Assembly (NCBI GenBank): GCA_020693225.1
Contig: JAIMJL010000025.1
Span: 1-34,337 of the forward strand
Reading direction: 5' to 3'
Length of the DNA: 34,337 bases
DNA from: Sandarakinorhabdus sp.
GTDB taxonomy: Bacteria; Pseudomonadota; Alphaproteobacteria; Sphingomonadales; Sphingomonadaceae
This document shows positions 5,660-34,337 of the stretch, in pieces (within the stretch, counting starts at the first letter, position 1; each line of letters begins with the position of its first letter). Under the pieces are notes generated by a model, which saw only the letters and a list, made by a program, of their open reading frames with translations, made no database searches and had not been told where the DNA came from. The translations under genes were made by a program, and so were the position numbers.

Positions 5660-6055
5660 TCAGTTGCGGACGCTGGGCTTCAGGATGTAGCGGCCGTCGC
5701 GGAACTCGCCGAAAATCTGATCGATCGCCGGGTGGCGGATGGGGTCGGCGTCGTCATCGGGGATCAGATTCTGCTGGCTGACATAGGCGACGTAGGCGCT
5801 TTCCTCATTTTCAGCGAGCAGGTGATAGAAGGGCTGGTCTTTGCGCGGCCGCACTTCTTCGGGAATCGCCTCCCACCATTCTTCGGTGTTGGCGAATTCC
5901 GGATCGACATCGAAGATGACGCCGCGGAACGGGAACAGCTTGTGCTTCACCACATCCCCGATTCCGAAATGCGCGACGGCCGCCTGCCAATGTGCACCGG
6001 CAGGCGTTTCGGGGGATTTCGGGGTGTCGCGCTTGGTGATGGTCTTGTCCTGCAT
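5660..6055 (-). CDS. hspQ: Heat shock protein HspQ (YccV family)
   Basis: FGIGDVVKHKLFPFRGVIFDVDPEFANTEEWWEAIPEEVRPRKDQPFYHLLAENEESAYVAYVSQQNLIPD matches the HspQ family pattern. Confidence 0.9.
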   Translation of the reverse strand: MQDKTITKRDTPKSPETPAGAHWQAAVAHFGIGDVVKHKLFPFRGVIFDVDPEFANTEEWWEAIPEEVRPRKDQPFYHLLAENEESAYVAYVSQQNLIPDDDADPIRHPAIDQIFGEFRDGRYILKPSVRN

Positions 6056-6181
6056 AAGAGTTGATTGCCTGATGCAAATATAGGCCTTCCACGCGCCAGG
6101 AGAAGGGGTTGACGCATCCGGACTTGCCCCGGCGCGCTCGCAAGGCTATGCCGCGCGCTCCCAAGACAGCAGCTGACCCGC

Positions 6182-6271
<90 letters not shown>

Positions 6272-6306
6272 CGGGCCATGGTGATCGAAGTGTAGCGGCG
6301 CCGGCT

Positions 6307-6412
6307 TAGAGCATGTTCCGATATGGTGGAATCACCAGCCTCGGAAACCCATGCGGAAAAACAGGAAGATAGAGCGGCCGTTCTGATGCAGTCAGAACGA
6401 GACTCGCTCTAG
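6307..6412. repeat. 106-bp compound palindromic intergenic repeat, copy 1
   Basis: TAGAGCATGTTCCGATATGGTGGAATCACCAGCCTCGGAAACCCATGC...TAGAGCGGCCGTTCTGATGCAGTCAGAACGAGACTCGCTCTAG; same length and about 97/106 identical by eye to 32749-32854; two nested stem-loops. Confidence 0.9.
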
Positions 6413-6545
6413 TGGGCGCTGTGACGATTGCAGCATTGTGTTATCGCGCGCGGGGTAAAAGCGTCCGAATATGATCATCGCAGCGGGCAGGCTTGGTCGA
6501 CTCGGCGTCGCGAGCGCCGGACGCTGGAGAGGAAAGGGCACTGGT

Positions 6546-7400
6546 TCAGGGCTGGAGCGGCTCTGCGGCGACCATGTGCCGATAGACGTGCCAGGTGGCG
6601 TGGCCGATGATCGGCAGGACGACGAGCAGGCCCAGCAGGCCGGTTGCGACCGAAACGGCAATCATCACGCCGATGACCAAGGCCCACATCAGCATCGATA
6701 CCGGATTGACGAGACAGGCGCGCACGCTGGTGGCAAGCGCGGTCATGAAATCGATGTCGCGGTCCAGCAGCAGGGGCACGGCGATCACGCTGACGGTGAA
6801 CACAACGGCGGCGAGGACGGCACCCACGGCATTGCCCAGAAGCAGGAAGCCCAACGCTTCCGGCGAAGTCAGATTGGCGATCAGCTCGCCAGGGCTGACC
6901 GAACTGGTGCCGAACTCCAGCGCATAGAGCAGGGTGGCGGCGCGCATCCAGATCAGCATGATGAAGATGAGTACGCCGCCGAACAGCAGCAGCTGGGTTC
7001 CGCCATGGCGGCGGAAGGAGCTGGCGATGGCGCCCCATTGCAGCGGCTCGCCGGCCTCCAGCCGGCGGCTGATTTCATAGAAGGCGACCGCAGTGGCCGG
7101 GCCGATCAACAGGAAGCCGGCGATGGCGGGAAAGGCGGCGAAGGCATAGCCGCGGGTGAACAGGAAGCCAACCAAGGCCACGCCGGCCACGACATAAACG
7201 GCGGCAAAGGTGATTCCGATCCACCAGCTGTTGCGGAAATCGGCTGCACCCTTTCGCAGCGCCACAAAGATCTCGCCGGGCGAAATCGAACGCACCTGCG
7301 GCGGCGGCAGATAGCCTTCCGGCGTAAAATCCGGCTCGGCGTCTTCAAACCGGGCCATGTCCGGCGCATGCTGGGCCGGATCGAGCGATTTTTTCATCAT
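6546..7400 (-). CDS. DUF2189-like integral membrane protein
   Basis: [19 protein letters not shown]... with six predicted TM segments (e.g. [65 protein letters not shown]), characteristic of DUF2189; divergent from cco operon. Confidence 0.8.
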
Positions 7401-7474: not shown

Positions 7475-8944
7475 ATGGCGATAGCAACGTTGGTTCGGCC
7501 CGGCATCCAGCCCGGCATCCGCTACGACAATGGCATTGTCCGGATGTTCGTGATCGCGACCGTGATCTGGGCGATTGGTGGCATGATGGCGGGCGTGTTC
7601 ATCGCCGGGCAGCTGGCCTTTCCGGTTCTGAACCTGTCGGAATATGTGAACTTCGGCCGGTTCCGCGCGGTGCATACCAGCTCGGTCGTTTTGGGCTTTG
7701 CCGGCAATGCGCTGATCGGCACCTCCTTGCATGTGGTGCAGCGGACCTGCCAGGTGCGGCTGTTCGGCGGCCGGGCGCCGGCGCTTTTTGTGTTCTGGGG
7801 TTATCAGGTGACCGTGTTGATGGCGATCATCGGCTATATGTTCGGAATCAGCAAGGCGATGGAATATGCCGAGCCGGAATGGTATAATGTTTTGCTGCTG
7901 GTGGTGGTGTGGGTGGTGTATTTCGTCATCTTCACCGGCACCATCGTGCGGCGGACCGAGCCGCATATCTATGTGGCCAACTGGTTTTACTGGGCATTCA
8001 TCGTGACGGTGGCGGTTCTGGTCATCGTCAACAATCTTTCGCTTCCGGTTTCCCTGTTGGGGACCAAGAGCTATTCGGTCTGGTCTGGCGTGCAGAGCGC
8101 GATGATCCAGTGGTGGTATGGCCACAATATGGTGGGTTTCTTCCTCACCGCCGGCTTCATCGGCATCATGTATTATTTCCTGCCCAAGCAGGCCGGCCGG
8201 CCGATCTACAGCTATCGGCTGTCTATCGTGCACTTCTGGGCGCTGATCTTCCTGTATATCTGGGCCGGCCCGCACCACCTGCATTACACCGCGCTGCCGG
8301 ACTGGACGCAGACGCTGGGCATGGTGTTTTCGATCATGCTGTGGATGCCTTCCTGGGGCGGGATGATCAACGGGATCATGACGCTTTCGGGTGCCTGGGG
8401 AAAGCTGCGCACTGATCCCGTTCTGCGCTTCCTGGTGGTGGCCGTGGCTTTCTATGGCATGGCGACGTTCGAGGGCCCGCTGATGGCGATCCGCGAAGTG
8501 AATGCGCTGTCGCACTATACCGACTGGACGGTGGGGCATGTGCATTCCGGGGCGCTGGGCTGGGTTGCCTTCATGGCCTTCGGCGCGCTCTATTATCTGG
8601 TGCCACGGCTTTGGGGGCGGCCGCTGCATTCCAAGCCGATGGTGGAGGTGCACTTCTGGCTGGCGACGATCGGCATCCTTTTCTACATCACCGCGATGTG
8701 GGTGGCGGGCATTTCGCAGGCCTTGATGTGGCGGGCCTATGACGACCAGGGCTTCCTGCAATATTCGTTCAGCGACTCGGTGGTGATGCTGCATCCCTAC
8801 TATGTGGTGCGGCTGGTGGGCGGACTGTTCTTTCTTTCCGGCATGCTGTTGATGGCGTTCAACCTGTATCGCACCGCGCGGGCTCCGATGGTGCGGGATG
8901 TGGACGGCGCACTGGCACCGGCCCGGTTGGGAGCATCGGCATAA
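7475..8944 (+). CDS. ccoN: cytochrome c oxidase, cbb3-type, subunit I
   Basis: [25 protein letters not shown]...; [57 protein letters not shown]. Confidence 0.97.
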
Positions 8945-9681
8945 TGGGCGCGTTCAACCATAGCGTGATCGAGAAGAGTGCTCCGCTCTTCCTGCTGCTG
9001 ACCCTGGTGACGATTGCGATCGGCGGGCTGGTGCAGATCATCCCGCTGTTCAAGATCGAAAGCACGATCGAGCCGGTGAAGGGCATGCGGCCCTACAGCC
9101 CGCTGGAGCTGGCGGGGCGCAACATCTATATCCGCGAGGGCTGCTACAACTGCCATTCGCAGATGATCCGCCCGTTTCGCGACGAGGTGGATCGCTATGG
9201 CCACTACAGCCTGGCGGCTGAGAGCAAATATGATCACCCCTTCCAGTGGGGCTCCAAGCGGACCGGGCCGGACTTGGCGCGGGTGGGCGGCAAATATTCC
9301 AATGCCTGGCATGTGGCGCATCTGAAGAACCCGCGCGATGTGCTGCCGGGATCGATCATGCCGCCCTATGGATTCCTGAAGGACAAGCCGCTGGAGGTGG
9401 ACACGCTGGGCGACCATCTGCGGACGTTGCGGACGCTTGGCGTGCCCTATTCGGCAGCGATGATCGAGGCGGCGGCGGCGGACGCGAAACTGCAGGCGCA
9501 GCCGGACAGCGGCGATGCCGATGCGCTTCGCGCGCGCTATCCCAAGGCACCGCTGGGGCCTTTTGTGGAGAAGCCGGGGCCGGTGACCGAGATGGAGGCG
9601 CTGATCGCCTATCTGCAGGTGCTGGGAACCTTGGCGGAAATCGAAGCGGCACGACCGGAAGATCTGAGGCAGACGCGATGA
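8944..9681 (+). CDS. ccoO: cytochrome c oxidase, cbb3-type, subunit II
   Basis: Single heme motif in EGCYNCHSQMIRPFRDEVDRYGHYS; N-terminal TM anchor. Confidence 0.97.
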   Translation: MGAFNHSVIEKSAPLFLLLTLVTIAIGGLVQIIPLFKIESTIEPVKGMRPYSPLELAGRNIYIREGCYNCHSQMIRPFRDEVDRYGHYSLAAESKYDHPFQWGSKRTGPDLARVGGKYSNAWHVAHLKNPRDVLPGSIMPPYGFLKDKPLEVDTLGDHLRTLRTLGVPYSAAMIEAAAADAKLQAQPDSGDADALRARYPKAPLGPFVEKPGPVTEMEALIAYLQVLGTLAEIEAARPEDLRQTR

Positions 9682-9854
9682 GTGAAGCAATGATGGGCTA
9701 TCTGGAAGCCGCATTCATCGTGCTGGGCATCCTGGTGATCGGCTGGCTGATGTGGCGGGTTTATGATCCGGCCCGCAAGGATGAGCTGGAAGCGCACGGC
9801 CGCCGGGTGCTGGAGCGGGATGATGCCGACGGAGGCAGCCATGGCGACGCCTGA
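9678..9854 (+). CDS. ccoQ: cbb3-type cytochrome oxidase subunit CcoQ (FixQ)
   Basis: MSEAMMGYLEAAFIVLGILVIGWLMWRVYDPARKDELEAHGRRVLERDD...; position between ccoO and ccoP; 4-nt overlap with ccoO. Confidence 0.85.
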   Translation: MSEAMMGYLEAAFIVLGILVIGWLMWRVYDPARKDELEAHGRRVLERDDADGGSHGDA

Positions 9855-10767
9855 ACGCGACCCGCTGACCGGGCAGTATACCACCGGGCACAGCTGGGAC
9901 GGCATCAAGGAACTGCGCACGCCGATTCCGGGCTGGTGGCTGGCGGTGTGGCTGGCATCGATTGCCTTCACGCTGGGCTATATCGTTTTCAACCCGTCGT
10001 TTCCGGCACTGGATGGCACGGTGAGCGGCGACAGCAGCCGCACGGCGCGCGAGGAGCTGGCCAAGGCGGGCGCGAAATCGGATGCCACCAAGGAGGCCCT
10101 GCGCGCGCAGATTGCGGCGCTGGACGTCGATGCCATTGCCGCCGATCCGCAACTTGCCCGCTTTGCCTTTCGCGGCGGCAAGGCGGCTTTCGCGGTGCAT
10201 TGTGCTGGCTGCCATGGCAGCGATGCGGGCGGGCAGATTGGCCAGTTTCCCGCGCTGGTGGATGATGACTGGCTGTGGGGCGGCACGGCAAGCCAGATCC
10301 ACCAGACCATCGCCTATGGCATTCGCAACGAGGAAGCCGACAGCCGCAACGGCCAGATGCCGGCGTTCGGCGACATTCTTTCGGATCGGGAAATCCGCGA
10401 TGTGGCGGCCTATGTTGCGGGGCTGGGCGATGCGAAGGTAGCGGCGGATCGCCGGGCGGCGATGCCGGGTGCCACGGTTTTTGCGCAGAATTGTGCCTCT
10501 TGCCATGGCGACAACGGCGAGGGGAACCGGGATTTCGGGGCGCCCCGGCTTTCGGATTCGATCTGGCTCTATGGCGCATCGCAGAAGGCGATCGAGGCGC
10601 AGATCCGCAATCCCCGGATGGGCATGATGCCGGCCTGGGAAAAGCGGATCGGTGCGGATGCCGTGAAGATGCTGGCCATCTATGTGCATGGGCTGGGCGG
10701 TGGCGAGGCCAATCCGCCGCCGCCGCCCGTTGCCGAAGCAGCCATCGCGCCGGTCGTCCAGCCGTGA
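9841..10767 (+). CDS. ccoP: cytochrome c oxidase, cbb3-type, subunit III (diheme)
   Basis: MATPERDPLTGQYTTGHSWDGIKELRTPIPGWW; two heme motifs CAGCH and CASCH. Confidence 0.96.
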   Translation: MATPERDPLTGQYTTGHSWDGIKELRTPIPGWWLAVWLASIAFTLGYIVFNPSFPALDGTVSGDSSRTAREELAKAGAKSDATKEALRAQIAALDVDAIAADPQLARFAFRGGKAAFAVHCAGCHGSDAGGQIGQFPALVDDDWLWGGTASQIHQTIAYGIRNEEADSRNGQMPAFGDILSDREIRDVAAYVAGLGDAKVAADRRAAMPGATVFAQNCASCHGDNGEGNRDFGAPRLSDSIWLYGASQKAIEAQIRNPRMGMMPAWEKRIGADAVKMLAIYVHGLGGGEANPPPPPVAEAAIAPVVQP

Positions 10768-12122
10768 AGGCGATGCCGGCGCTGCCCAGCCGGCCGATCC
10801 GGCCGCGGCCTGTTGCGGGCCGCTGGCGACACGCGAAGAATGTGGTGATGGCGATCGTGCTGGTGGCGTTGTTTGTGGGGCCGGTGCTGCCTTGGGCGCG
10901 GGCCGATGGCCTGCCGCAGCGGGCGCTGTTGTTCGATTTTGCTGGCGGACAGGCCTATCTGTTTGGCGCGGTGTTTGGTCCGCGTGATCTGCCGCTTTTG
11001 CTGGCCACCTTGATATCGGCGGCGTTGCTGCTGTTTCTGACCAACAGTGTGGTGGGTCGGATCTGGTGCGGCTTTGCCTGCCCGCAGACGATCTGGACGG
11101 ATCTGTATCGCAAGATCGAGACGCGGGTGCAGCGATTTGGCGGCACCGGACTGGCGCGCGCCATCTGGCTCCTGGTTTCCTTTGCCACCGCATTTGCAAT
11201 GGTATCCTGGTTTTTCGAAGGGGGCGGGTTGCTTGGCGATCCGAAGCCGGTGGCAACCGCCCTGCTGCTGCTGTTCACCGGTTTGACCTATCTTCTGGCG
11301 GCGCATGCGCAGGAGCTGGTTTGCACGCATATGTGCCCGTGGCCGCGCATCCAGGCGGCGATGGTGGACGGCGACACGGCGCTGGTGACCTATGACGAGC
11401 GGCGCGGCGAACCGCGCGGGGCGCTGAAGCGCGCGGCGGCTGGCGGCGCGGTGCGCGGGGCCTGCGTGGATTGCGGGCTTTGCGTGGCGGTTTGCCCGAT
11501 GGGGATCGACATCCGTCGCGGCCAGCAGCTGGCCTGCATCGGCTGCGGGCTGTGCGCCGACGCCTGCGACGGGGTGATGGCGCGGACGAAGCAGCCGGCG
11601 GGATTGATCCGCTTTGCCAGCCAGCGCGCCATGGAGCAGCCCGCGAAACCCGCGCCGCCGCTTTGGCGGCGCCCGCGACCGATGGCCTATGCCCTGCTGA
11701 TCGCCTTTGTGGCGATTGGCACGGCAACGCTGTTTCAGGGGCGGGGCGGGGTGAGCATGATGGTGGAGCCGGTGCGCAGCCGGGGCTATGTGCTGTTGAG
11801 CGACGGATCGGTGCGCAACGATTTCACGCTTCTGGTACGCGACGGGCGGGCCGAGCCTGCGGCGCTGGTTGTGCGCACCAGCGGCTTGCCGGGGGCGACC
11901 GTGCGGGTGGGCATTGGCGGCGATGCGCCTGCCGAAGATGGCACAATTCCCGTGGCGAGCGGCGACACGGCGACCGAGGCCCGGCTGCTCATCACTGTGC
12001 CGCCCGGCGTGGCTGCGGCCGATCGTACCGTGTTTTCGCTGCGGCTGGAGCCGGTGGGCGGGGGCGCTCCGGTGGCAGAGACCGAGAGCTTTTTCGTTGC
12101 TCCTCCGGCAGGGGCTCGTTGA
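10764..12122 (+). CDS. ccoG: cytochrome c oxidase accessory protein CcoG (FixG), ferredoxin-like
   Basis: VVGRIWCGFACPQTIWTDLY; CVDCGLCVAVCPMGIDIRRGQQLACIGCGLCADACD. GTG start at 10764 overlaps ccoP stop by 4 nt (ATG alternative at 10773). Confidence 0.93.
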   Translation: MKAMPALPSRPIRPRPVAGRWRHAKNVVMAIVLVALFVGPVLPWARADGLPQRALLFDFAGGQAYLFGAVFGPRDLPLLLATLISAALLLFLTNSVVGRIWCGFACPQTIWTDLYRKIETRVQRFGGTGLARAIWLLVSFATAFAMVSWFFEGGGLLGDPKPVATALLLLFTGLTYLLAAHAQELVCTHMCPWPRIQAAMVDGDTALVTYDERRGEPRGALKRAAAGGAVRGACVDCGLCVAVCPMGIDIRRGQQLACIGCGLCADACDGVMARTKQPAGLIRFASQRAMEQPAKPAPPLWRRPRPMAYALLIAFVAIGTATLFQGRGGVSMMVEPVRSRGYVLLSDGSVRNDFTLLVRDGRAEPAALVVRTSGLPGATVRVGIGGDAPAEDGTIPVASGDTATEARLLITVPPGVAAADRTVFSLRLEPVGGGAPVAETESFFVAPPAGAR

Positions 12123-12589
12123 TGCTGGCGGCAGCGCGGACCTGGTTCCTGACCGGCGACCGGTGGATTCCGGCGCTGTTCGTGCTGTTTTTTGTGGGGC
12201 TGGCGGTGGTGGAGGCGCGGTTGATCCATATCGCGCTTTCAACGAGCACGGGGCTGGTGACCGATCAACCGGCGGCAGCGGTGGCGGGCAAGTGGCAGCT
12301 GGATCTGGACGTTGCGCCGCTGGCGGGCGAAGCGGTGCCGGTTCGTGTGCGGGTGCGCGAAGTGGACGGGCGCAGCGTGCGCGGAGCGGATGTGCGGGTG
12401 GTGGCGGAGCGGGCCAGCCGCTACGCGCAGATTGTGAGCGTGGCCCTGCAGGAGCAGGACGGCGCCTATGTCGGCGCGCTGCGGCTGCCGATCGGCGGCA
12501 CCTGGGACATCAGCGTGGTGGCCGAGCGCGGCGATGAGCGGGCGACGATGGCGCGAGACATCGAAGTGGCGGCGGGGGTTTTGCCATGA
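12122..12589 (+). CDS. ccoH: FixH-family protein
   Basis: MLAAARTWFLTGDRWIPALFVLFFVGLAVVEARLIHIALSTSTGLVTDQP; position between ccoG and ccoI. Confidence 0.88.
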   Translation: MLAAARTWFLTGDRWIPALFVLFFVGLAVVEARLIHIALSTSTGLVTDQPAAAVAGKWQLDLDVAPLAGEAVPVRVRVREVDGRSVRGADVRVVAERASRYAQIVSVALQEQDGAYVGALRLPIGGTWDISVVAERGDERATMARDIEVAAGVLP

Positions 12590-14787
12590 CGGCGGCGGCG
12601 TCCGGGCTGCAGGTTGCCGGCGGTCCGCCGACTCTGGCGGGCTATGTGACGCGCGGTGCGGACGGGCTTTCGGCGATCGACCTCTTTGTGGACGGAATCC
12701 ATTGCGGCGGCTGCGTGCGAAAGGTGGAGAACCGGCTGGCGGCGGACGCGCGAATTGCCAGTGCCCGGCTCAATCTTTCGACCCGCCGCCTGCAGGTGCG
12801 CTGGCGCGGTGCGCGCGGCATGGCAGACACCATCGTCGCTGCCATTGCCGAGCTTGGCTATGCCGCAACTCCCTATGCGCAGGAGGATGTGACCGCAGCC
12901 GATGCCGCCCGGGCGCGGACGTTGCAGCTGGCGTTCGGGGTGGCGTTCTTTGCGATGGCCAATGTGATGATGCTGTCGTGGGCGCTGTGGGTTGGCGATG
13001 ATGGCGACATGGGGCCGGGCACGCGCGGGCTGTTCCAGTGGCTTTCGGCGCTGGTGGCGCTGCCGGCCATTGCCTATGCCGGGCGACCCTTCTTTGCCTC
13101 GGCCTGGGCAGCCCTGCGGCAGGGCAGCACCAACATGGATGTGCCGATTGCCGCCGGGGTACTGCTGACCACGGCCATGAGCCTTTCGGAGACCGTTCGC
13201 GGCGGGCCGCACATCTATTTCGATGGCGCGCTGTCGTTGCTGACGGTGCTGCTGCTGGGCCGCTGGCTGGACCAGCGGGCGCGCAGCCGGGCACGTTCCG
13301 GCGTGACCCGGCTGGCCGAGCTGGCGGCGCGGCCGGTGGCGCTTCTGCTGCCCGAAGGCAGCACCGAGGCGGTTCCGGCGGCGCGGATTCGCCCCGGCCA
13401 GCGCATCCTAGTGGCGGCGGGCGAGCGGATCGGTGCGGACGGGCGGATCGAAACAGGCGAAACGCGGATCGAGACCAGCCTGATCACCGGCGAATGGCTG
13501 CCGCAGGCGGCCGGGCCCGGCGATGCGGTGCTGGCCGGGATGACGAATATCGGCGCGCCGATCGTGGTGCATGCCGAACGCGCCGGCAATGCCAGCAGCG
13601 TGGCCGAAATGGTGCAGCTTCTGGAGGCCGCCGAGCAGAAGAAGGGCGGCTATGTGGCGCTCGCCGACCGGGTTGTCGGTTTCTACACGCCGGTGGTGCA
13701 TGGGCTGGCGCTGGCCACGTTTCTGGGCTGGTGGCTGTTGGGCGGGCTGGGCTGGCAGCCGGCGCTGGTGCATGCGGTAACAGTATTGATCATCGCCTGC
13801 CCCTGTGCGCTGGGGCTTGCCGTTCCGGTGACGCAGGTGGTGGCTGCCGGACGATTGATGAAGAGCGGTATCCTGCTGAAATCGGAGACGGCGCTGGAGC
13901 GGGCGGCGGAGGTGAACATGGTGGTGTTCGACAAGACCGGAACGCTCACCCTGCCGGCAGCGGCGCTGGCGCCCGTTCCCGACCGGCCCGAGGTGCGCCG
14001 CCTGGCGGCCGGGCTGGCGGCGGCGAGCCTGCACCCGCTGGCGCGCGCCATTCGCGCGCTGGATCCGGAAGCACCGGCGCTGGACGGGGTGATCGAAGTG
14101 CCTGGCCTGGGGTTGCTATGGGCCGGGCCGGAGGGCGATATTCGGCTGGGCTCTGCCGAATGGTGCGGGGTGGCGGCAGGCGAGGGGCCGCAGGCCGAGG
14201 CCTGGCTGGTGGCACCGGGATTGCCGGCCATACGCTTTGCGTTGACCCAGCAGCTGCGCCCGGACGCGGATCGCAGCATCGCGCTCCTGCGGGCTACGGG
14301 GCGGGAGGTTGTGCTGCTGTCTGGTGATCGGGATGCTGCGGTGGCGCCAATTGCTGCGGAAGCCGGGTTGGATGCGTGGCAGGCGGGCCTGTTGCCGGCT
14401 GGGAAGGCCGCTGAAGTCGCCCGTCGGGTGCAGGCCGGGCAGCAGGTTCTGATGGTGGGGGATGGCATCAATGATGCTCCGGCGCTGGCGACGGCCACGG
14501 TTTCCATGGCACCGGGGCATGCGTCTGACATCAGTCGCAACGCCGCCGATGCGGTCTGGCTGGGAAGCAGTCTTGCCGCGGTGCCGGAGTTTCTGGCGGT
14601 TGCGGCGAAGGCGCGGAGCATCATCCGGCAGAACATCGGCTTTTCGTTTGTTTACAACGCCATCTGGGTGCCGGTGGCGGTGGCGGGGCTGGTAAACCCG
14701 TGGATTGCCGCGCTGGCGATGGCGGCCAGTTCGCTGGCAGTGACCTTGAACGCGCTGCGGCTCAACCGGGGCGGGGGAGGCGCATGA
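12586..14787 (+). CDS. ccoI: Copper-translocating P-type ATPase of cbb3 assembly
   Basis: N-terminal CGGC metal site, IIACPCALGLAVPVTQ, FDKTGTLTLP, MVGDGINDAPAL. Confidence 0.95.
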   Translation: MTAAASGLQVAGGPPTLAGYVTRGADGLSAIDLFVDGIHCGGCVRKVENRLAADARIASARLNLSTRRLQVRWRGARGMADTIVAAIAELGYAATPYAQEDVTAADAARARTLQLAFGVAFFAMANVMMLSWALWVGDDGDMGPGTRGLFQWLSALVALPAIAYAGRPFFASAWAALRQGSTNMDVPIAAGVLLTTAMSLSETVRGGPHIYFDGALSLLTVLLLGRWLDQRARSRARSGVTRLAELAARPVALLLPEGSTEAVPAARIRPGQRILVAAGERIGADGRIETGETRIETSLITGEWLPQAAGPGDAVLAGMTNIGAPIVVHAERAGNASSVAEMVQLLEAAEQKKGGYVALADRVVGFYTPVVHGLALATFLGWWLLGGLGWQPALVHAVTVLIIACPCALGLAVPVTQVVAAGRLMKSGILLKSETALERAAEVNMVVFDKTGTLTLPAAALAPVPDRPEVRRLAAGLAAASLHPLARAIRALDPEAPALDGVIEVPGLGLLWAGPEGDIRLGSAEWCGVAAGEGPQAEAWLVAPGLPAIRFALTQQLRPDADRSIALLRATGREVVLLSGDRDAAVAPIAAEAGLDAWQAGLLPAGKAAEVARRVQAGQQVLMVGDGINDAPALATATVSMAPGHASDISRNAADAVWLGSSLAAVPEFLAVAAKARSIIRQNIGFSFVYNAIWVPVAVAGLVNPWIAALAMAASSLAVTLNALRLNRGGGGA

Positions 14788-18394: not shown

Positions 18395-18540
18395 AAAATG
18401 TCGCACGTTGATGGGAAGTGGCCGACAACGCGATAGAGCGATGGTCGACGGCGTCGACCCGTCGGGGAAGGTGTCACATCGCGCGCAACACAAGGCCCGA
18501 TCGAGAGGCTGCATCGCGCCCCAGCAAAGGGGAATTCACT

Positions 18541-21114
18541 ATGCCAAACGCCATAACCGCACAGCGTCACGCCATTCTGGGCTCGGCATCCGTTGGCGCC
18601 ATCCTCTGCACTGCCATGCTAGGTTTCGCAGCGCCTGCCATCGCCCAGACTGGCACGGCCGCCAACGAAGACATCATTGTGACCGCGCGCAAGCGCGAGG
18701 AAGATATCCAGCGCGTGCCAATCGCCATCACGGCGCTGACGGCGTCTGATCTTGCCGCGCGCAACATCAGCAATTTCAACGATTTGTCCAACAGCACGCC
18801 GGGCATTGCGGTCACCTCGATCGCCGGCGGCACGTTGCAGACCATCTATATTCGCGGCCTGGCGCCGGCGAACACCGCCAATGATCTCAACGTGGAAGCC
18901 AATGTCGGCGTGTTCATCGACGGCATCTACCAGACCAGCCGCAACACGCTGGATATGATTTCGGTGCTGGATCTGGCGCAGATCGAAATTGCCAAGGGTC
19001 CGCAGAGCGCGCTGTTCGGCCGCTCCACCTTTGCCGGCGCGGTCAGCATTTCCACCGCATCGCCCACCGACACGCTTTCGATGAACGGCTCGGCGACGAT
19101 CGGCAACGACAAGGATTTCCGGGTGCGGGCCGCCATTTCGGCGCCGCTGTCGGACACGCTTTCGGTGCGGGTGGCCGGCGGCTGGCTGAGCTATGGCGGA
19201 TTTGGCGAAAATCTGGCCGACCCCGGTGACAAGCTGAACGGCACCGAGAAATGGGCCATCACCGCGGCCGCGCTGTGGCAGCCGACCGATGATCTGACGG
19301 TGAAGCTTGCCGGCTTCATCACCCGTTCGGAGGTGGAGATGTCGTCGGTGAGCCACACGCCGCTCACCAGCAACAATTGCGGCACGGTAAATGCGGCGAC
19401 CCGCCTGCCGACGCTGTTCTGCGGCGACCTGCAAGCCGAGCGGGTGGCCGATATTACCCCGGACATGCCGGTGACGACGGCAGAGAATCAGCAGGTCTCG
19501 CTGGATATAACCTGGCGTCGCGACGGCATTGCGTTCACCAGCGTGACCGGCTTCACCGCTTCGGACAACAGCACCTTCAACGACTATGACGGGTCTTCAC
19601 AAGGCGTGCAGTTCGGGGTGTGCGGCGCAGGGGTAGGCTGCTTTCCGTTCAGCGCCTACAGCCGCCTGCAACGGGTGAACCTGCAATCGATCAGCCTGGA
19701 GAAGGTGCGCACCTTCAGCCAGGAGTTCCGCATCCAGTCCGCTGGGGATTCGCCCTTTTCGTGGATTGCGGGCGCCAGCTATTTCAACTCCCGCGTTCCG
19801 TTGACGGCGGGGGGGATTGGAGCCGATCGCAATGGTCTCGCCGCCAATGAGCGGGTGGTGCAGGTGTCGCAGATCACACCGCCGCCGGCCACGGGATTTG
19901 GGGCCTATGATTTCGTTGCCAATCCTTTCCTCACCAACGACTGGAAGACCATGGGGCTTTCCAGCAGCTATTCCGCGGCGTTCACGCGCAACTTTTCCAT
20001 CTTCGGGGCAATTGGCTATGATTTCGGCCGCGTCCGGGTGAATGCCGAGGGCCGCTACAACAGCGACCAGAAGCAGGCGCAGGTGTTCTCGGTGAACAAT
20101 CCGCTGTCGCAACCCGGCTTCAACCAGCACATTGTGCCCGGAGACGTGCCGGAGGCGGGCGTTTTCCCGGTGGTTGGCCCGAAGTTCCGCAAGACCTTCA
20201 CCCACTTCGCCCCGCGCTTCACCGTGGATTGGCAGGCGCATGACGATATTTTCGTCTATGCGTCGGCGGCCATGGGGGTGCGTTCGGGTGGCTTCAACAC
20301 GGCCAACGCGGTCAGCGCCACCGGCATTCTGGCCGATGAAGTGGCTTACGGCGAGGAATCCAATTGGACCTACGAACTGGGCTTCAAGAGCGACCTGTTC
20401 GACAATCGCTGGATGCTGAACGCCTCGGTGTTCCATGTTGTGTGGAGCGATGCGCAGGTTTCCGGCTTCACGCAGAACCCGACGGCGGTTGGTGCCACGC
20501 GGATCGTGCAGAATGCCGGCGACATCAAGGCCACCGGCTTTGAAGTGCAGACGCAGTTTCGCTTCAGCGACCTGTTCGCGGTGGGCGGCAGCCTGACCTA
20601 TTCGGATCCGAAGTTTCAGGCGGGGGCCTATGAAGGCTCGCAGATTGCGCAGTGCGTGATCGGTACGGGCGCGGCCGCCACTGCGGCGCCGGGTTGCCCG
20701 CCGGTCATCCTGATCACCCGGGCCAATGGCCAGACGGTGGCGGTGCCTTCGCTGGAAGGCCTGCGTCCCTCGCGCGCCGTGAAGTTGCAGTGGAATCTGA
20801 ATGCCAGCCTTGCGGTGCCGATCAGCAACGAATGGCGGCTGGATGGACGGGTGGATGTGAGCCACACCGGCAACAGCTATTCCAACCTCATCAACACTGC
20901 GGCTTTCGGCGAACGTACGCTGACCAATCTGCGGATCGGCGTGAGCAATGATCGCTTCGGCATCGCGGCCTGGGTGAACAATCTGTTCGATGTGGAATAT
21001 GTGGCCAACTCGATCAACCAGCCCCGCGCCGGCATCCCGTTCGTGTTTTCGGTCGGGGAAAATTATCTCGGCGAAACGCGCCGCTTCGGGCTGACGGCTT
21101 CGTTCAAATATTGA
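18541..21114 (+). CDS. TonB-dependent receptor
   Basis: MPNAITAQRHAILGSASVGAILCTAMLGFAAPAIAQ signal, EDIIVTARKREEDIQRVPIAITALTASDLAARNISNFNDLSNSTPGI plug, terminal FGLTASFKY. Confidence 0.94.
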   Translation: MPNAITAQRHAILGSASVGAILCTAMLGFAAPAIAQTGTAANEDIIVTARKREEDIQRVPIAITALTASDLAARNISNFNDLSNSTPGIAVTSIAGGTLQTIYIRGLAPANTANDLNVEANVGVFIDGIYQTSRNTLDMISVLDLAQIEIAKGPQSALFGRSTFAGAVSISTASPTDTLSMNGSATIGNDKDFRVRAAISAPLSDTLSVRVAGGWLSYGGFGENLADPGDKLNGTEKWAITAAALWQPTDDLTVKLAGFITRSEVEMSSVSHTPLTSNNCGTVNAATRLPTLFCGDLQAERVADITPDMPVTTAENQQVSLDITWRRDGIAFTSVTGFTASDNSTFNDYDGSSQGVQFGVCGAGVGCFPFSAYSRLQRVNLQSISLEKVRTFSQEFRIQSAGDSPFSWIAGASYFNSRVPLTAGGIGADRNGLAANERVVQVSQITPPPATGFGAYDFVANPFLTNDWKTMGLSSSYSAAFTRNFSIFGAIGYDFGRVRVNAEGRYNSDQKQAQVFSVNNPLSQPGFNQHIVPGDVPEAGVFPVVGPKFRKTFTHFAPRFTVDWQAHDDIFVYASAAMGVRSGGFNTANAVSATGILADEVAYGEESNWTYELGFKSDLFDNRWMLNASVFHVVWSDAQVSGFTQNPTAVGATRIVQNAGDIKATGFEVQTQFRFSDLFAVGGSLTYSDPKFQAGAYEGSQIAQCVIGTGAAATAAPGCPPVILITRANGQTVAVPSLEGLRPSRAVKLQWNLNASLAVPISNEWRLDGRVDVSHTGNSYSNLINTAAFGERTLTNLRIGVSNDRFGIAAWVNNLFDVEYVANSINQPRAGIPFVFSVGENYLGETRRFGLTASFKY

Positions 21115-21153
21115 GGCCAATGGGCGGCCTGCACCACAGCCCGGTGTGGCACA

Positions 21154-22398
21154 TTATTGCAGCGGCCCTGCTTGCGGAACGGGCGGCGCTTCGCCTGGTT
21201 GCAGCTTCAGGCCGCCAAGCACCAGGTTGGGCAGCATGCTGTTGTCCCACTCCAGCGTTTTTGGCGGGTTCGGGCCGGTGCGCAGGATGACGGTGCGGGT
21301 CTGCGGCGACACATAGACGACCTGGTTGCCGTTGCCGTCGAACAGGAACAGATCGCGATCCGGATAGGGCCGGGTGTGCAGCACTTGCGGGCCACCCTTT
21401 TCAGGGCCGGAAAAGCCGCGCCGCGCGACATAGCCTTCGCCCAGCCACAGCCCCATGCCGAAATGCGGGTTCTGTGGTGTGGGGGTGCGCATCTGCTGCA
21501 CAAAGCCCTGTGGCAGCAGCCGCTTGGCAGCCCACTTGCCGTCATCCAGCAGCAGCACCGCGAGCTTCAGCCAGCTTTCGGGGGGCAAGGTCATGCAGCA
21601 TCCGGAATGGGCCAGTCCGCCTTCGCGGTTGATCCAGATTTGCCCGCCCTCCGCGCCAAGCGGGGCCAGGATTTCGCTGCCGATGAACTCCGCATAGCGG
21701 CGACCTGTGGCGCGTTCGATCACCACGGCGACCAGCTCGGCGGTGGCGTTGTTATAGCCATAGTGCGTGCCGGGCGGATGGGTCAGCGGGTAATGATCGA
21801 TGATCTGCTGGCCATGATCGGGATCGATATAGGCGCGGTTGATCGGATGGTCCGGATCGGCGCTCACCATCTGCTCCAGCAGCCCGGAGCGCATGTCGAG
21901 CAGGTGGCGAACGCGGATCTCCGCCTTGGGGGTGCCCTTCCATTCGGGGATGAAATCGGCAACCGGCTGATCGACGGAGCGGATCGAGCCGAGCTGGATG
22001 GCGCGGCCGATGGCAATTGCGCTCAGCGGCTTGGACAGGGATTTCGATACGATCGGCGTGTGGCGGTCCGCCCCTTGCGGATACCAAGAGGCCTGCAACT
22101 TGCCGTTTCGCCATACGAGGAAGGCGCTGCTGGCATTGGCTTCGGCATAGGCGCGGGCCGCTTCCAGCGCGTCCGGGCTGATGCTGCGTTCGGCGGCGGT
22201 TGCCAGCGGGATCGGGCCGGGCCTTGCGGCGCCGCGCACCGCTTCCATCGGGGCATAGTCGGGGAAGATGCCACGGTTCTGCATGAGCGTGGCAAAGCGC
22301 GCCTGATAGATCGCTTCCCACTGTGGATCGCGCTCTGCCGCAGCCGGTTGGGCAGCGGTCAGCAACAACGCGAGCAGGGCGGAGCGGGCTGGGAGCAT
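21154..22398 (-). CDS. Periplasmic serine hydrolase (beta-lactamase class C / EstB family)
   Basis: Signal MLPARSALLALLLTAAQPAAA; SLSK (SxxK) in PIVSKSLSKPLSAIAIG; YGYNNATAEL (YxN); VRHLLDMRSGL. Confidence 0.85.
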   Translation of the reverse strand: MLPARSALLALLLTAAQPAAAERDPQWEAIYQARFATLMQNRGIFPDYAPMEAVRGAARPGPIPLATAAERSISPDALEAARAYAEANASSAFLVWRNGKLQASWYPQGADRHTPIVSKSLSKPLSAIAIGRAIQLGSIRSVDQPVADFIPEWKGTPKAEIRVRHLLDMRSGLLEQMVSADPDHPINRAYIDPDHGQQIIDHYPLTHPPGTHYGYNNATAELVAVVIERATGRRYAEFIGSEILAPLGAEGGQIWINREGGLAHSGCCMTLPPESWLKLAVLLLDDGKWAAKRLLPQGFVQQMRTPTPQNPHFGMGLWLGEGYVARRGFSGPEKGGPQVLHTRPYPDRDLFLFDGNGNQVVYVSPQTRTVILRTGPNPPKTLEWDNSMLPNLVLGGLKLQPGEAPPVPQAGPLQ

Positions 22399-22406
22399 CG
22401 CGCCGA

Positions 22407-22916
22407 TCAGTTTTTCGGCGGGCTGGTGTCGGTCCAGTTTTCCCAGTCGCGGGTGACGAATCGCTCGTCGATCAGTGTGCGCTGGAAGCAGATGCCGTCG
22501 CGGAACCACTGCCATGTGCGGGCGCGGTGGGTGCGGGCGTCGTTGTTCTGGATCATCTCGTAAAGCTCGAGGCCGGGCTCGTTCTTGCGCTCCCAGTAGA
22601 GGCAGGTGGAGCGGTTGAGATCGTCGAGCGTGAGCTCGGCGCACCAGCCTTTGATGAGGTCATTGTCCCAGCGCAGGCGACCGTCGCGGAAGTCGGCGGG
22701 AAAGTCGCGGATGTCGGTGCGACCATCTGGCCAGAAATAATAGTTGGTCTGATGGTAACGCTGGCTGCCGTCCGGATTGCGGATCAGCCGGCACAGCAGG
22801 CGCGATCGGTGTTCATCGACCAGCTTGCCGGTGCTGGCGTCATAATAGCGGTACCAGCCCTCCCAGACGCCTTCGTTGCTGGCGAGAATGGGCATGGCTT
22901 CGCTGATGCTGGGCAT
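22407..22916 (-). CDS. Hypothetical conserved-looking protein (possible DUF3598/lipocalin-like fold)
   Basis: MPSISEAMPILASNEGVWEGWYRYYDASTGKLVDEHRSRLLCRLIRNPDGSQRYHQTNYYFWPDGRTD...; 8 bp upstream of the serine hydrolase, same strand. Family call uncertain. Confidence 0.65.
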   Translation of the reverse strand: MPSISEAMPILASNEGVWEGWYRYYDASTGKLVDEHRSRLLCRLIRNPDGSQRYHQTNYYFWPDGRTDIRDFPADFRDGRLRWDNDLIKGWCAELTLDDLNRSTCLYWERKNEPGLELYEMIQNNDARTHRARTWQWFRDGICFQRTLIDERFVTRDWENWTDTSPPKN

Positions 22917-31014: not shown

Positions 31015-32016
31015 TCAGGGCGCGCTTGCTACCGGTGCGGACGTTGGAATCGCGGCTTCGATATAGGCCAGCATGATGCGGGCGAAGCGGTCTGGCGCTT
31101 CGAGCGGGGGATAATGGCCGACGTCGGGCAGGATCATCCGCGACACTTCCGACTTGGGCATATAGCCGTGCAGCCGCTCCACGGCTGATAGCGGCAGCAG
31201 CTTGTCGGCACCGCCCCAGATCAGCAGCGCCGGGGTAGTGATCCTTGCAAAAAGCTGGGTCGATTCCTTGCCATCGCGGATTTGCGCCACCAGGGCGACC
31301 ACATTCGGGTGCGGTGCGCGGCGGTTGAACATATAATATTCCTGCCGCTTGGCGGGGCTGATCCGCGCCGGGTCGCCGGAGAAATAGCTCATGAACTGGT
31401 TCCAGAAATCCTGATCCTGGATGCCCTGCTGTTTGGCGCGGGCCTGGGCGTCGATGAAGGCCTGCGGTTGCACGAGATGGGTGGTGACCACGGGATCGGA
31501 CGGCATGTTGGAGAGCACCAGCCGTTCAACCAGATCCGGCCGCTTCGAGGCGAGGAATGCGACCAGCGTGCCGCCGCTCGAAACACCGACGGCGGCCGCC
31601 AGACGGGTCACGCCGCGTTCCTTCAGCAGCGCCTCGGCAATGTCGGTGGGTTTGAGCGCCGCCGCCGCTGCATCGGATACCGGGCCGGAAAGCCCGTTGC
31701 CTGCCACATCATAGCGGATGATGCGGTAGCGATCCTTCAGCTGTTCGACGATGCGATCCCAGGTGCGCAGGGAGCTGGCCGAGCCATGCACCATCAGCAG
31801 GACGGGGCCCTGGCCTTCGTCCTTGTAGTGGATTTCAACGCCACCGATGGTGGTGAAGCGGCTTTGCGGGTCAACGAAGGCTGCGCGCAGATCTGCGACC
31901 GAGAGGTGTGTGGGCGGTGCCGGCTGAGCGACCCTGGCGGAATCCTGCGCGACTGCGGGCGCGCCGACCACCAGGGCAGCGAGGGCAAAGGCAAGCACGA
32001 AAGGAGGGCGCATCAT
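31015..32016 (-). CDS. Secreted alpha/beta hydrolase
   Basis: Signal MMRPPFVLAFALAALVVGAPAVAQ; LLMVHGSASSLRTWD; VGVSSGG nucleophile region; LPDVGHYPPLEAPDRF. Confidence 0.88.
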   Translation of the reverse strand: MMRPPFVLAFALAALVVGAPAVAQDSARVAQPAPPTHLSVADLRAAFVDPQSRFTTIGGVEIHYKDEGQGPVLLMVHGSASSLRTWDRIVEQLKDRYRIIRYDVAGNGLSGPVSDAAAAALKPTDIAEALLKERGVTRLAAAVGVSSGGTLVAFLASKRPDLVERLVLSNMPSDPVVTTHLVQPQAFIDAQARAKQQGIQDQDFWNQFMSYFSGDPARISPAKRQEYYMFNRRAPHPNVVALVAQIRDGKESTQLFARITTPALLIWGGADKLLPLSAVERLHGYMPKSEVSRMILPDVGHYPPLEAPDRFARIMLAYIEAAIPTSAPVASAP

Positions 32017-32225
32017 TGCTTCCCCAGGGTCTGGAGATAGGCCAGCACATCCGCGCGGGCCTTGGCGCTGGCGATGCCGGCAAAGACCATCGTGGTTCCC
32101 GGAACCAGCGCATTGGGCCGCTGCAGCCAGGCATCCATCCGCGCCGCATCCCAGGTGATGCCCGATTTTGCGAACGCCGGCGAATAAGCGAAGCCGGGCT
32201 TTGCCGCAGCCTTCGAGCCCATCAC
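32013..32225 (-). pseudogene. Cytochrome c, C-terminal remnant (N-terminal CXXCH half missing)
   Basis: MGSKAAAKPGFAYSPAFAKSGITWDAARMDAWLQRPNALVPGTTMVFAGIASAKARADVLAYLQTLGKQ is the C-terminal part of a class I cytochrome c; reading the frame upstream reaches a stop (TAG) with no CXXCH. Confidence 0.8.
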
Positions 32226-32751
32226 GCCGGCGTTGCAGGGCCGGCAGGCGGAGGCGGTGCGAACCCTGCCCTATCAGCCGATCACCATCGCGATGCTGCA
32301 GGCGAGCGAACCTTTCTGGGACAGCGACGGCCTCTCGCCGGGCATGTGGACCGATGGCTTCAGCGGCAATGCGATGCCGCAGCGTTTTGGCACCAACAGC
32401 AGCGACATCAGCGGATTGATGGTGCAGGCGCGCGGGTTGCTCGCCCTGCAATGGGATCGGCTGGGCAAGGAGGCCGCCATGCGGCGACTGATCGCCGATA
32501 TCGAGGCGATGCGGCCCGCTGCGAAAGGCAAGTTGAAGGCGACCGCCTGCGTCAGCTGGGCCGGGGAATATTTCAGCGGCGGCGACATTGCCTATTATTC
32601 GCCGGGGCAGATTGCCTCTTTCGTGGCCGGAATGGGCGCCAGCGCCGGTCGCATCCACTTTTGTGGCGAGCATCTGGCAACCGCCGCGCGCGGGCTGGAG
32701 GGTGCGCTGGAAACGGCCGAGCGCGCAGCGATCGAGATTTTGACGGCCTAG
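32221..32751 (+). pseudogene. Flavin amine oxidase, C-terminal remnant (FAD-binding N-terminus missing)
   Basis: ITPALQGRQAEAVRTLPYQPITIAML...ATACVSWAGEYFSGGDIAYYSPGQIASF...GRIHFCGEHLATAARGLEGALETAERAAIEILTA* is the C-terminal region of the monoamine oxidase family; no GxGxxG region upstream. Confidence 0.75.
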
Positions 32752-32854
32752 AGCATGTTCCGATCTGGTAGAATAACCAGAATCGGAAATCCATGCTGAA
32801 AAACAAGAAGATAGAGCGGCCGTTCTGATGCAATCAGAACGAGACTCGCTCTAG
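32749..32854. repeat. 106-bp compound palindromic intergenic repeat, copy 2
   Basis: TAGAGCATGTTCCGATCTGGTAGAATAACCAGAATCGGAAATCCATGC...TAGAGCGGCCGTTCTGATGCAATCAGAACGAGACTCGCTCTAG; near identical to 6307-6412. Confidence 0.9.
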
Positions 32855-34337
32855 AGCCCCAGCACACCGGGGTTCATGAGCCCCTGCGGATCGAGCAGGG
32901 CCTTGATGCCGTGCAACAGGGCGGCTGCCTGCGGATCGAGACGCTGCTGATAGGGGTAGGCGCGGCCAAGCTGGAAATGCGCCGCCCCGAACTGCTGCAT
33001 CAGCGCGATCACTTCGCCCTTCAGCGCATCGGTGAAGGCGCGGGCGACCGGGTTTTCGGCATAGGCGGGCAGCGCGGCGAGATGTTCGGAACCAAGGGTT
33101 TCGCGGTGATAGGGGGAGCGGTCATCCGGCCAGTAGAAGGCGATTTCATAAAGGAAGCCGGTGGAGCCGACCGGGCTGAACATGGTTCCCACGGTTACGC
33201 CATGGCGCTGCATTTCCGCGCGCCGGGTTTGCAGCAGCGCGGCATAGGCGGCGTGGAAGGGCATCACATCGGTCTGCCGGAAGATGCCGTGGATCGGCAC
33301 CCAACGTTCGCCGGCCGGCCCCAGGATGTTGGCCAGCGGGGCAAAGGGCATGGAGCGTACAAAGCTTGGCACGCTGTTGGCGATTTCCCGGCCATGCGGC
33401 GCCATCAGGCAGCGCAGGCGGCGGGCGCGGCCTTCGGCTTCCGGCGCATCGATCCCTTCCACGATGAAATGCACCATATAGGCACCGGCGCGCATCGGAT
33501 CGTCCCCGGCCAGCGCCATCTTCAGCAGCTGTTTCAGGCCGGCGACCGGACCCGGCGCCCGCCGCCAAACTTCGCCGGCAATCTTCAGCCGCGCGCCCAC
33601 CCCCTCCTGCCGGGCGATCTGGCCCTGCGACAGCGCGAGATCGAGCCCGAATTGCGAATCCTCCAGCCGCTCTTTCTGGGCCAGCGCGATTCCCCGGTGG
33701 CACGCGGCGAGGTCATCGAACGCGAAGCTCAGCGCAACGGCGGCCTCGCGCACCGCGATCAGCGGCATCCGGATGGCAACCTTCAGCCCCAGCGCGCCGC
33801 AGTCTCCGGTAAACAGCCCGGTCAGGTCCGGGCCATAGTGGCGCGTGGCGGCGCTGGCGCCGGTGGACAGGAGCGCGCCGGATGCCAGCACGACATCCAT
33901 CGAGAGGACGGATTCGGCGGAAATGCCGTGCGCGGCCGTTCCGTGGCTCACCGTGTTCTGGCTGATGCTGCCGCCGATGGTGGCAGCGATCCCCGAAAAC
34001 GGCCCCCAGAAGGGCGTACGCAGGCCGCGCGCGTCAAGCGCCGTCTTCAGCTGCGCCCAGGTGGTGCCGGCACCCACGGTGACGAGGGCGTTGTCTTCAT
34101 CGATGGCGATGCTGTCGAGCGCGCCCATATCGAACAGCACATGGCCGCCGGCCAGGGTGATATAGCCATCGGTGTAGGACGCACCGCCGCCGCGCGGAAC
34201 CATGGCGACCCCGGCATCGGCACACAGGCGGACCGCCTGTTGCACGGCTTCGACCGTGGCAGGACGCACGATGGCAAGCGGCGCGCCGCCACTGCGATAG
34301 ACATCGTTGGCCATCAGGGCGAGCGCGGCCGGATCCG
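32851..34337 (-). CDS. FAD-linked oxidoreductase (FAD_binding_4 / VAO-type), partial, 5' end outside window
   Basis: LAIVRPATVEAVQQAVRLCADAGVAMVPRGGGASYTDGY (PP-loop-like), IAATIGGSISQNTVSHGTAAHGISAESVLSMDVVLASGALL; frame stays open through the window end (DPAALALMANDVYRSGG). Confidence 0.88.
   Translation of the reverse strand, partial: DPAALALMANDVYRSGGAPLAIVRPATVEAVQQAVRLCADAGVAMVPRGGGASYTDGYITLAGGHVLFDMGALDSIAIDEDNALVTVGAGTTWAQLKTALDARGLRTPFWGPFSGIAATIGGSISQNTVSHGTAAHGISAESVLSMDVVLASGALLSTGASAATRHYGPDLTGLFTGDCGALGLKVAIRMPLIAVREAAVALSFAFDDLAACHRGIALAQKERLEDSQFGLDLALSQGQIARQEGVGARLKIAGEVWRRAPGPVAGLKQLLKMALAGDDPMRAGAYMVHFIVEGIDAPEAEGRARRLRCLMAPHGREIANSVPSFVRSMPFAPLANILGPAGERWVPIHGIFRQTDVMPFHAAYAALLQTRRAEMQRHGVTVGTMFSPVGSTGFLYEIAFYWPDDRSPYHRETLGSEHLAALPAYAENPVARAFTDALKGEVIALMQQFGAAHFQLGRAYPYQQRLDPQAAALLHGIKALLDPQGLMNPGVLGL

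Follow-up and report, generated by a model that had tools for sequence, protein, structure and literature searches.

One deletion of ~1.25 kb very probably removed the 5' halves of two divergent genes, one encoding a cytochrome c and the other a flavin amine oxidase (FAO), together with the promoter region that they shared. The junction lies in the stretch of 34,337 bp that was analysed here (the window), which is the entire contig C54 of a 2.63-Mb genome assembled in 134 contigs with 98% completeness. The genus of this organism is placed in the Sphingosinicellaceae (Sphingomonadales). Three relatives with an intact gene pair were used for comparison: Sandaracinobacteroides hominis SZY PN-1 (G001, contig NZ_JADCUC010000002), which belongs to the same genus as the window, and genomes G027 and G034, which represent two other genera. 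The region around the junction has the following features.

31015 to 32016, minus strand: intact alpha/beta-hydrolase gene (PF00561/PF12697)
32013 to 32219, minus strand: 3' remnant of a cytochrome c gene of the c-550 type (NF043008 match and identity to the S. hominis protein)
32220 to 32228, no strand: probable deletion junction CATCACGCC, possibly extending to 32231 (CATCACGCCGGC), located by comparison of the flanks with G001, G027 and G034
32229 to 32751, plus strand: 3' remnant of the FAO gene (PF01593, positions 272-443 of 443; 77% amino acid identity to the S. hominis enzyme)
32748 to 32853, no strand: dispersed double-hairpin repeat of ~106 bp between the FAO remnant and the FAD oxidase gene
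32851 to 34335, minus strand: FAD-binding_4 oxidase gene, intact to the contig edge (PF01565; 79% amino acid identity to S. hominis)

On the minus strand the frame at 32013-32225, which stays open back to 32270, matches only the C-terminal part of the NCBIfam profile for cytochrome c-550 (NF043008, positions 60-126 of 131, E = 1.1e-13). The coding sequence between 32013 and about 32228 covers residues ~59-131 of such a class I cytochrome c and ends with a TGA stop at 32015-32013. Its amino acid identity to the corresponding C-terminal part of the S. hominis protein, which is intact with 131 residues, is 62%. The distal-ligand region (PGTTMVFAG) is kept; the signal peptide and the CXXCH motif, the latter present in all three relatives, are missing. 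On the plus strand the frame at 32188-32751 likewise matches only the C-terminal part of the Pfam Amino_oxidase family (PF01593, E = 3.7e-13). The segment from about 32220 to 32751 represents the last ~175 residues of an FAO. About 297 N-terminal residues are gone, and with them the Tat signal and the Rossmann GxGxxG motif that occur in G001, G027 and G034. There is no ATG start codon in the first part of the FAO frame or upstream in it, the first possible start being a TTG at 32233, and a scan of 31900-33000 for sigma-70-like promoters, a weak type of evidence, gave no match. Neither remnant contains an internal stop codon. The preliminary description had recognized a minus-strand cytochrome c frame that starts in mid-protein without CXXCH and a plus-strand FAO C-terminal half from about 32221, both free of internal stops, and all of this was confirmed; the FAO homology (ITPAL...) indeed starts at 32221.

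In each of the three relatives the same place is occupied by a full-length cytochrome c gene on the minus strand and a full-length FAO gene on the plus strand in head-to-head orientation, with start codons 148-236 bp apart. Since this intact divergent pair is found at the same position in three genomes, the pattern in the window is not due to chance. The cytochrome c gene is followed by the alpha/beta-hydrolase gene in G001 and G027 with overlapping stop and start codons (TGATG), and the FAD-binding_4 oxidase gene beyond the FAO is common to the window and G001. DNA alignment of the window with the S. hominis locus (L068) is interrupted precisely at the junction: it paired positions 31053-32228 with 5988-7142 and positions 32217-32749 with 8387-8919. 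The flanks are collinear and the window lacks 1256 bp relative to G001, 1360 bp relative to G027 and 1242 bp relative to G034. Aligning the junction to relatives with intact divergent genes had been suggested beforehand, and the single missing block of ~1.25 kb, together with the synteny, supports the proposal that one deletion took the divergent promoter region and both 5' halves. Stand-alone families in which either short protein would be full length had been named beforehand as evidence against this proposal. What was found instead were FAO homologues in Sphingomonadales and beyond that are full length, with open frames of about 450-708 amino acids, and adjacent cytochromes c that carry CXXCH. 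Short FAO matches among the homologues lay at contig ends, apart from one remnant of another paralogue in the sister species S. hominis. The latter (L102:8463-8903, G001:C15:422453-422893) is a separate FAO C-terminal fragment of about 33% identity with one in-frame TGA and no N-terminal half nearby, and is an independent pseudogene.

The switch in homology falls at 32220-32228, with the cytochrome c side extending up to 32228 and the FAO side starting from 32221. The sequence across the junction reads GAGCC-CATCACGCC-GGCGTT, in which CATCACGCC is compatible with both flanks: on the cytochrome side it provides Gly-Val-Met codons on the minus strand (the Val also occurs in G027) and on the FAO side Ile-Thr-Pro codons. 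Both homologies thus end together, as had been noted, but the spot is smaller than the roughly 15 bp first given, being a 9-bp tract of ambiguity that may reach 12 bp. Apparent homology of both proteins past the junction in tblastn searches (25-130 and 272-473) was rejected as chance gapped extension through stop codons. The cytochrome c N-terminal half searched alone gave no match beyond the junction, and the N-terminal halves alone give no support for such extended homology.

The earlier suggestion to look for microhomology at the breakpoints led to a short direct repeat. In the intact G027 locus both breakpoint sites carry an identical 10-bp run, CCATCACGCC, of which one copy is present in the window. 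Among 587,530 position pairs between the two G027 genes the longest exact run was 10 bp, and runs of 10 bp or longer had a frequency of 1.9e-5. The G027 breakpoints therefore sit in a repeat as long as the longest that its two genes share, which points to deletion between short repeats. In S. hominis, the closest relative, the left copy, CATGATGCC, has drifted and differs from CATCACGCC at 2 of 9 bases, so it is the window and G027 that suggest a perfect repeat in the direct ancestor. An explanation by two separate truncations, or by an insertion that was later excised, would be scarcely credible beside one deletion. Nothing direct speaks for them apart from a dispersed hairpin repeat nearby (32748-32853), which is more than 500 bp away, whereas both homologies stop in the same 9-bp tract with no foreign sequence between them. 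At that distance the hairpin repeat was also dismissed as the cause of the deletion.

The age of the event was estimated from the state of the remnants. Comparison of the FAO remnant with S. hominis gave a dN of 0.176, a dS of 0.952 and a dN/dS of 0.185; the corresponding ratios for the intact neighbours were 0.164 (FAD oxidase) and 0.236 (hydrolase). Tajima relative-rate counts were 13:13 for the FAO (against G027) and 12:7 and 7:11 for the cytochrome, which is not significant. No changes were found at the 39 positions (26 + 13) at which 85% or more of the homologues agree. In neutral simulations a divergence of about 0.03 substitutions per site spared the remnants in only ~5% of runs, a rough bound since conserved codons were placed at random. 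The accelerated decay expected of pseudogenes was thus not seen in either remnant, in the form of excess substitutions or of stop codons, and an old event was rejected. Set against a synonymous distance of ~0.9 to S. hominis, this lack of decay means that the event is either very recent or an artefact. The recent origin proposed in the preliminary description is in line with the undecayed remnants, and by the substitution data the deletion appears young compared with the divergence from S. hominis.

Undecayed frames could also be read as genuine short proteins or as a selected new arrangement, for example one in which the cytochrome remnant serves as a leader to which translation of the hydrolase is coupled. 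The frames are open and conserved and the ATGA overlap with the hydrolase gene has been kept, yet recency already explains the lack of decay. The haem-binding motif and the Rossmann part are both gone, the FAO frame lacks an upstream ATG and a sigma-70-like promoter match in 31900-33000, and the FAO relatives are full length with CXXCH-bearing cytochromes alongside. We consider this interpretation very improbable.

An assembly or amplification artefact is unlikely, but has to be weighed against a real deletion. If it were an artefact, the organism would possess the intact pair and the junction would stem from a chimeric molecule or from a misjoin at the short repeat. Undecayed remnants are equally expected from an artefact, the genome is fragmented (134 contigs), and chimeric molecules can also arise at microhomologies. 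On the other hand, an overlap of 9-12 bp is shorter than the k-mers that assemblers normally use, and a misjoin must have left out precisely what lies between two syntenic neighbours, with their order and orientation unchanged. Moreover, the missing block was found on no other contig of the 98%-complete genome. With the FAO N-terminal half as query only generic FAD-domain similarity over 43-48 residues was detected in this genome, while the same query found G001, G027 and G034 with E values of 1e-114 or better. The deleted DNA segment of S. hominis gave no match in the genome either. The same tool readily finds flank DNA at 73-76% identity, which makes the absence of the segment meaningful, and relocation of the missing halves elsewhere in the genome was rejected. 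A real deletion is favoured because joins at 9-12 bp are unusual for assemblers, the block occurs on no other contig and gene order and orientation are maintained.

Under the preferred explanation of one deletion, the ancestor would have carried a cytochrome c gene with a coupled alpha/beta-hydrolase gene on the minus strand and, divergently, a gene for a Tat-exported FAO on the plus strand. The loss of ~1.25 kb would have taken the shared promoter region, with the intergenic segment of 148-236 bp, and both N-terminal parts. The cytochrome would have lost ~58 residues, among them the signal peptide and the haem-binding CXXCH, and the FAO ~297 residues, which include the Tat signal and the FAD-binding Rossmann part. 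To judge from the junction, the deletion was probably guided by a direct repeat of roughly 10 bases, possibly through replication slippage or single-strand annealing at the two repeat copies. In E. coli, deletions between short direct repeats have been shown to occur independently of RecA (PMC5426353). As in those cases, the sequence between the repeats is gone and one copy is left at the junction, but here the mechanism is deduced from the junction itself and the repeat of 9-12 bp was reconstructed from a relative rather than seen in the direct ancestor. We infer that neither remnant would yield a working protein. Like ordinary pseudogenes formed by recent deletion, they are 5'-truncated, promoterless remnants of genes with intact orthologues; the difference is that two genes, probably forming one redox pair, were lost together. 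While the event is mechanistically ordinary, the locus offers a clean example of head-to-head genes in which one short-repeat deletion takes an enzyme together with what is probably its electron acceptor. For annotation, both short frames should be treated as remnants and not as new small proteins. It is conceivable, though doubtful, that the undecayed remnants at this repeat-prone junction reflect a live polymorphism in a population in which intact and deleted cells coexist; if so, one could follow as it happens how an amine dehydrogenase is lost along with its dedicated cytochrome acceptor.

The function of the intact pair can be considered by analogy. According to published work, FAOs whose electrons go to a dedicated cytochrome c instead of O2 are marked by two features, a Tat signal and an adjacent cytochrome c gene (PMC12224317), and the flavoprotein amine dehydrogenases NicA2 and Pnao use a cytochrome c, CycN (PMC9396064). 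The FAOs of the intact relatives have the PF01593 fold and, read by eye, a Tat-like TRRxF motif at the start, and a divergent cytochrome c gene lies 148-236 bp away. They share with NicA2/Pnao-CycN the Tat-like signal and the adjacent gene for a cytochrome c with a signal-like N-terminus. In contrast to the P. putida S16 genes, which form one operon, the genes of the relatives are divergent, and the FAO matches NicA2 weakly (5ttj, E 1.4e-13), below MAO-B. Due to this weak similarity the lost genes can be said to resemble a NicA2/CycN-type pairing as a functional analogy, not as members of that group. By this analogy, one event probably disabled an amine-oxidising enzyme along with its cytochrome electron acceptor. 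Of ~22 FAO-bearing Sphingomonadales loci read with flanking sequence (several kb if the contig was long enough), 9 also had a cytochrome c gene of this type in the stretch read. The divergent arrangement in Sphingomonadales adds to the candidates for amine dehydrogenases that use a cytochrome, whose number is growing. At L087, L088, L096, L097, L098, L101 and L067, which span various Sphingomonadales and one Steroidobacteraceae genome, a c-type cytochrome gene was noted no more than about 6 kb from another FAO gene; by gene neighbourhood the products of these FAO genes are candidates for the same class.

The genes flanking the remnants are intact. The ATG of the hydrolase gene overlaps the cytochrome c stop codon (ATGA), a tight overlap also present in G001 and G027. 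The hydrolase gene probably lost its upstream promoter too, its native promoter presumably having gone in the same step as the 5' halves. The FAD-binding_4 oxidase gene is convergent to the FAO and is a conserved neighbour in G001. Between this gene and the FAO remnant lies the double-hairpin repeat, which has a predicted fold of -46 kcal/mol (z -6.9) and at least 40 genome copies at 87-95% identity (67 candidates, 40 scored). It is a REP/MITE-like intergenic element. Another copy is located in the window at 6303-6412, and weaker relatives occur in other genera. Two copies are at contig ends (C40 and C84), and the repeat may break the assembly. Elsewhere in the window, segments 18418-22644 and 7549-14000 match contig C4 of G027 within a 16-kb stretch that bears its intact FAO-cytochrome pair, with the order rearranged, which suggests a shuffled conserved neighbourhood. 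The window also contains a cbb3 oxidase and assembly cluster (8944-9681, 11471-12589 and 12586-14787) with FixO, FixH and a copper-translocating P-type ATPase.
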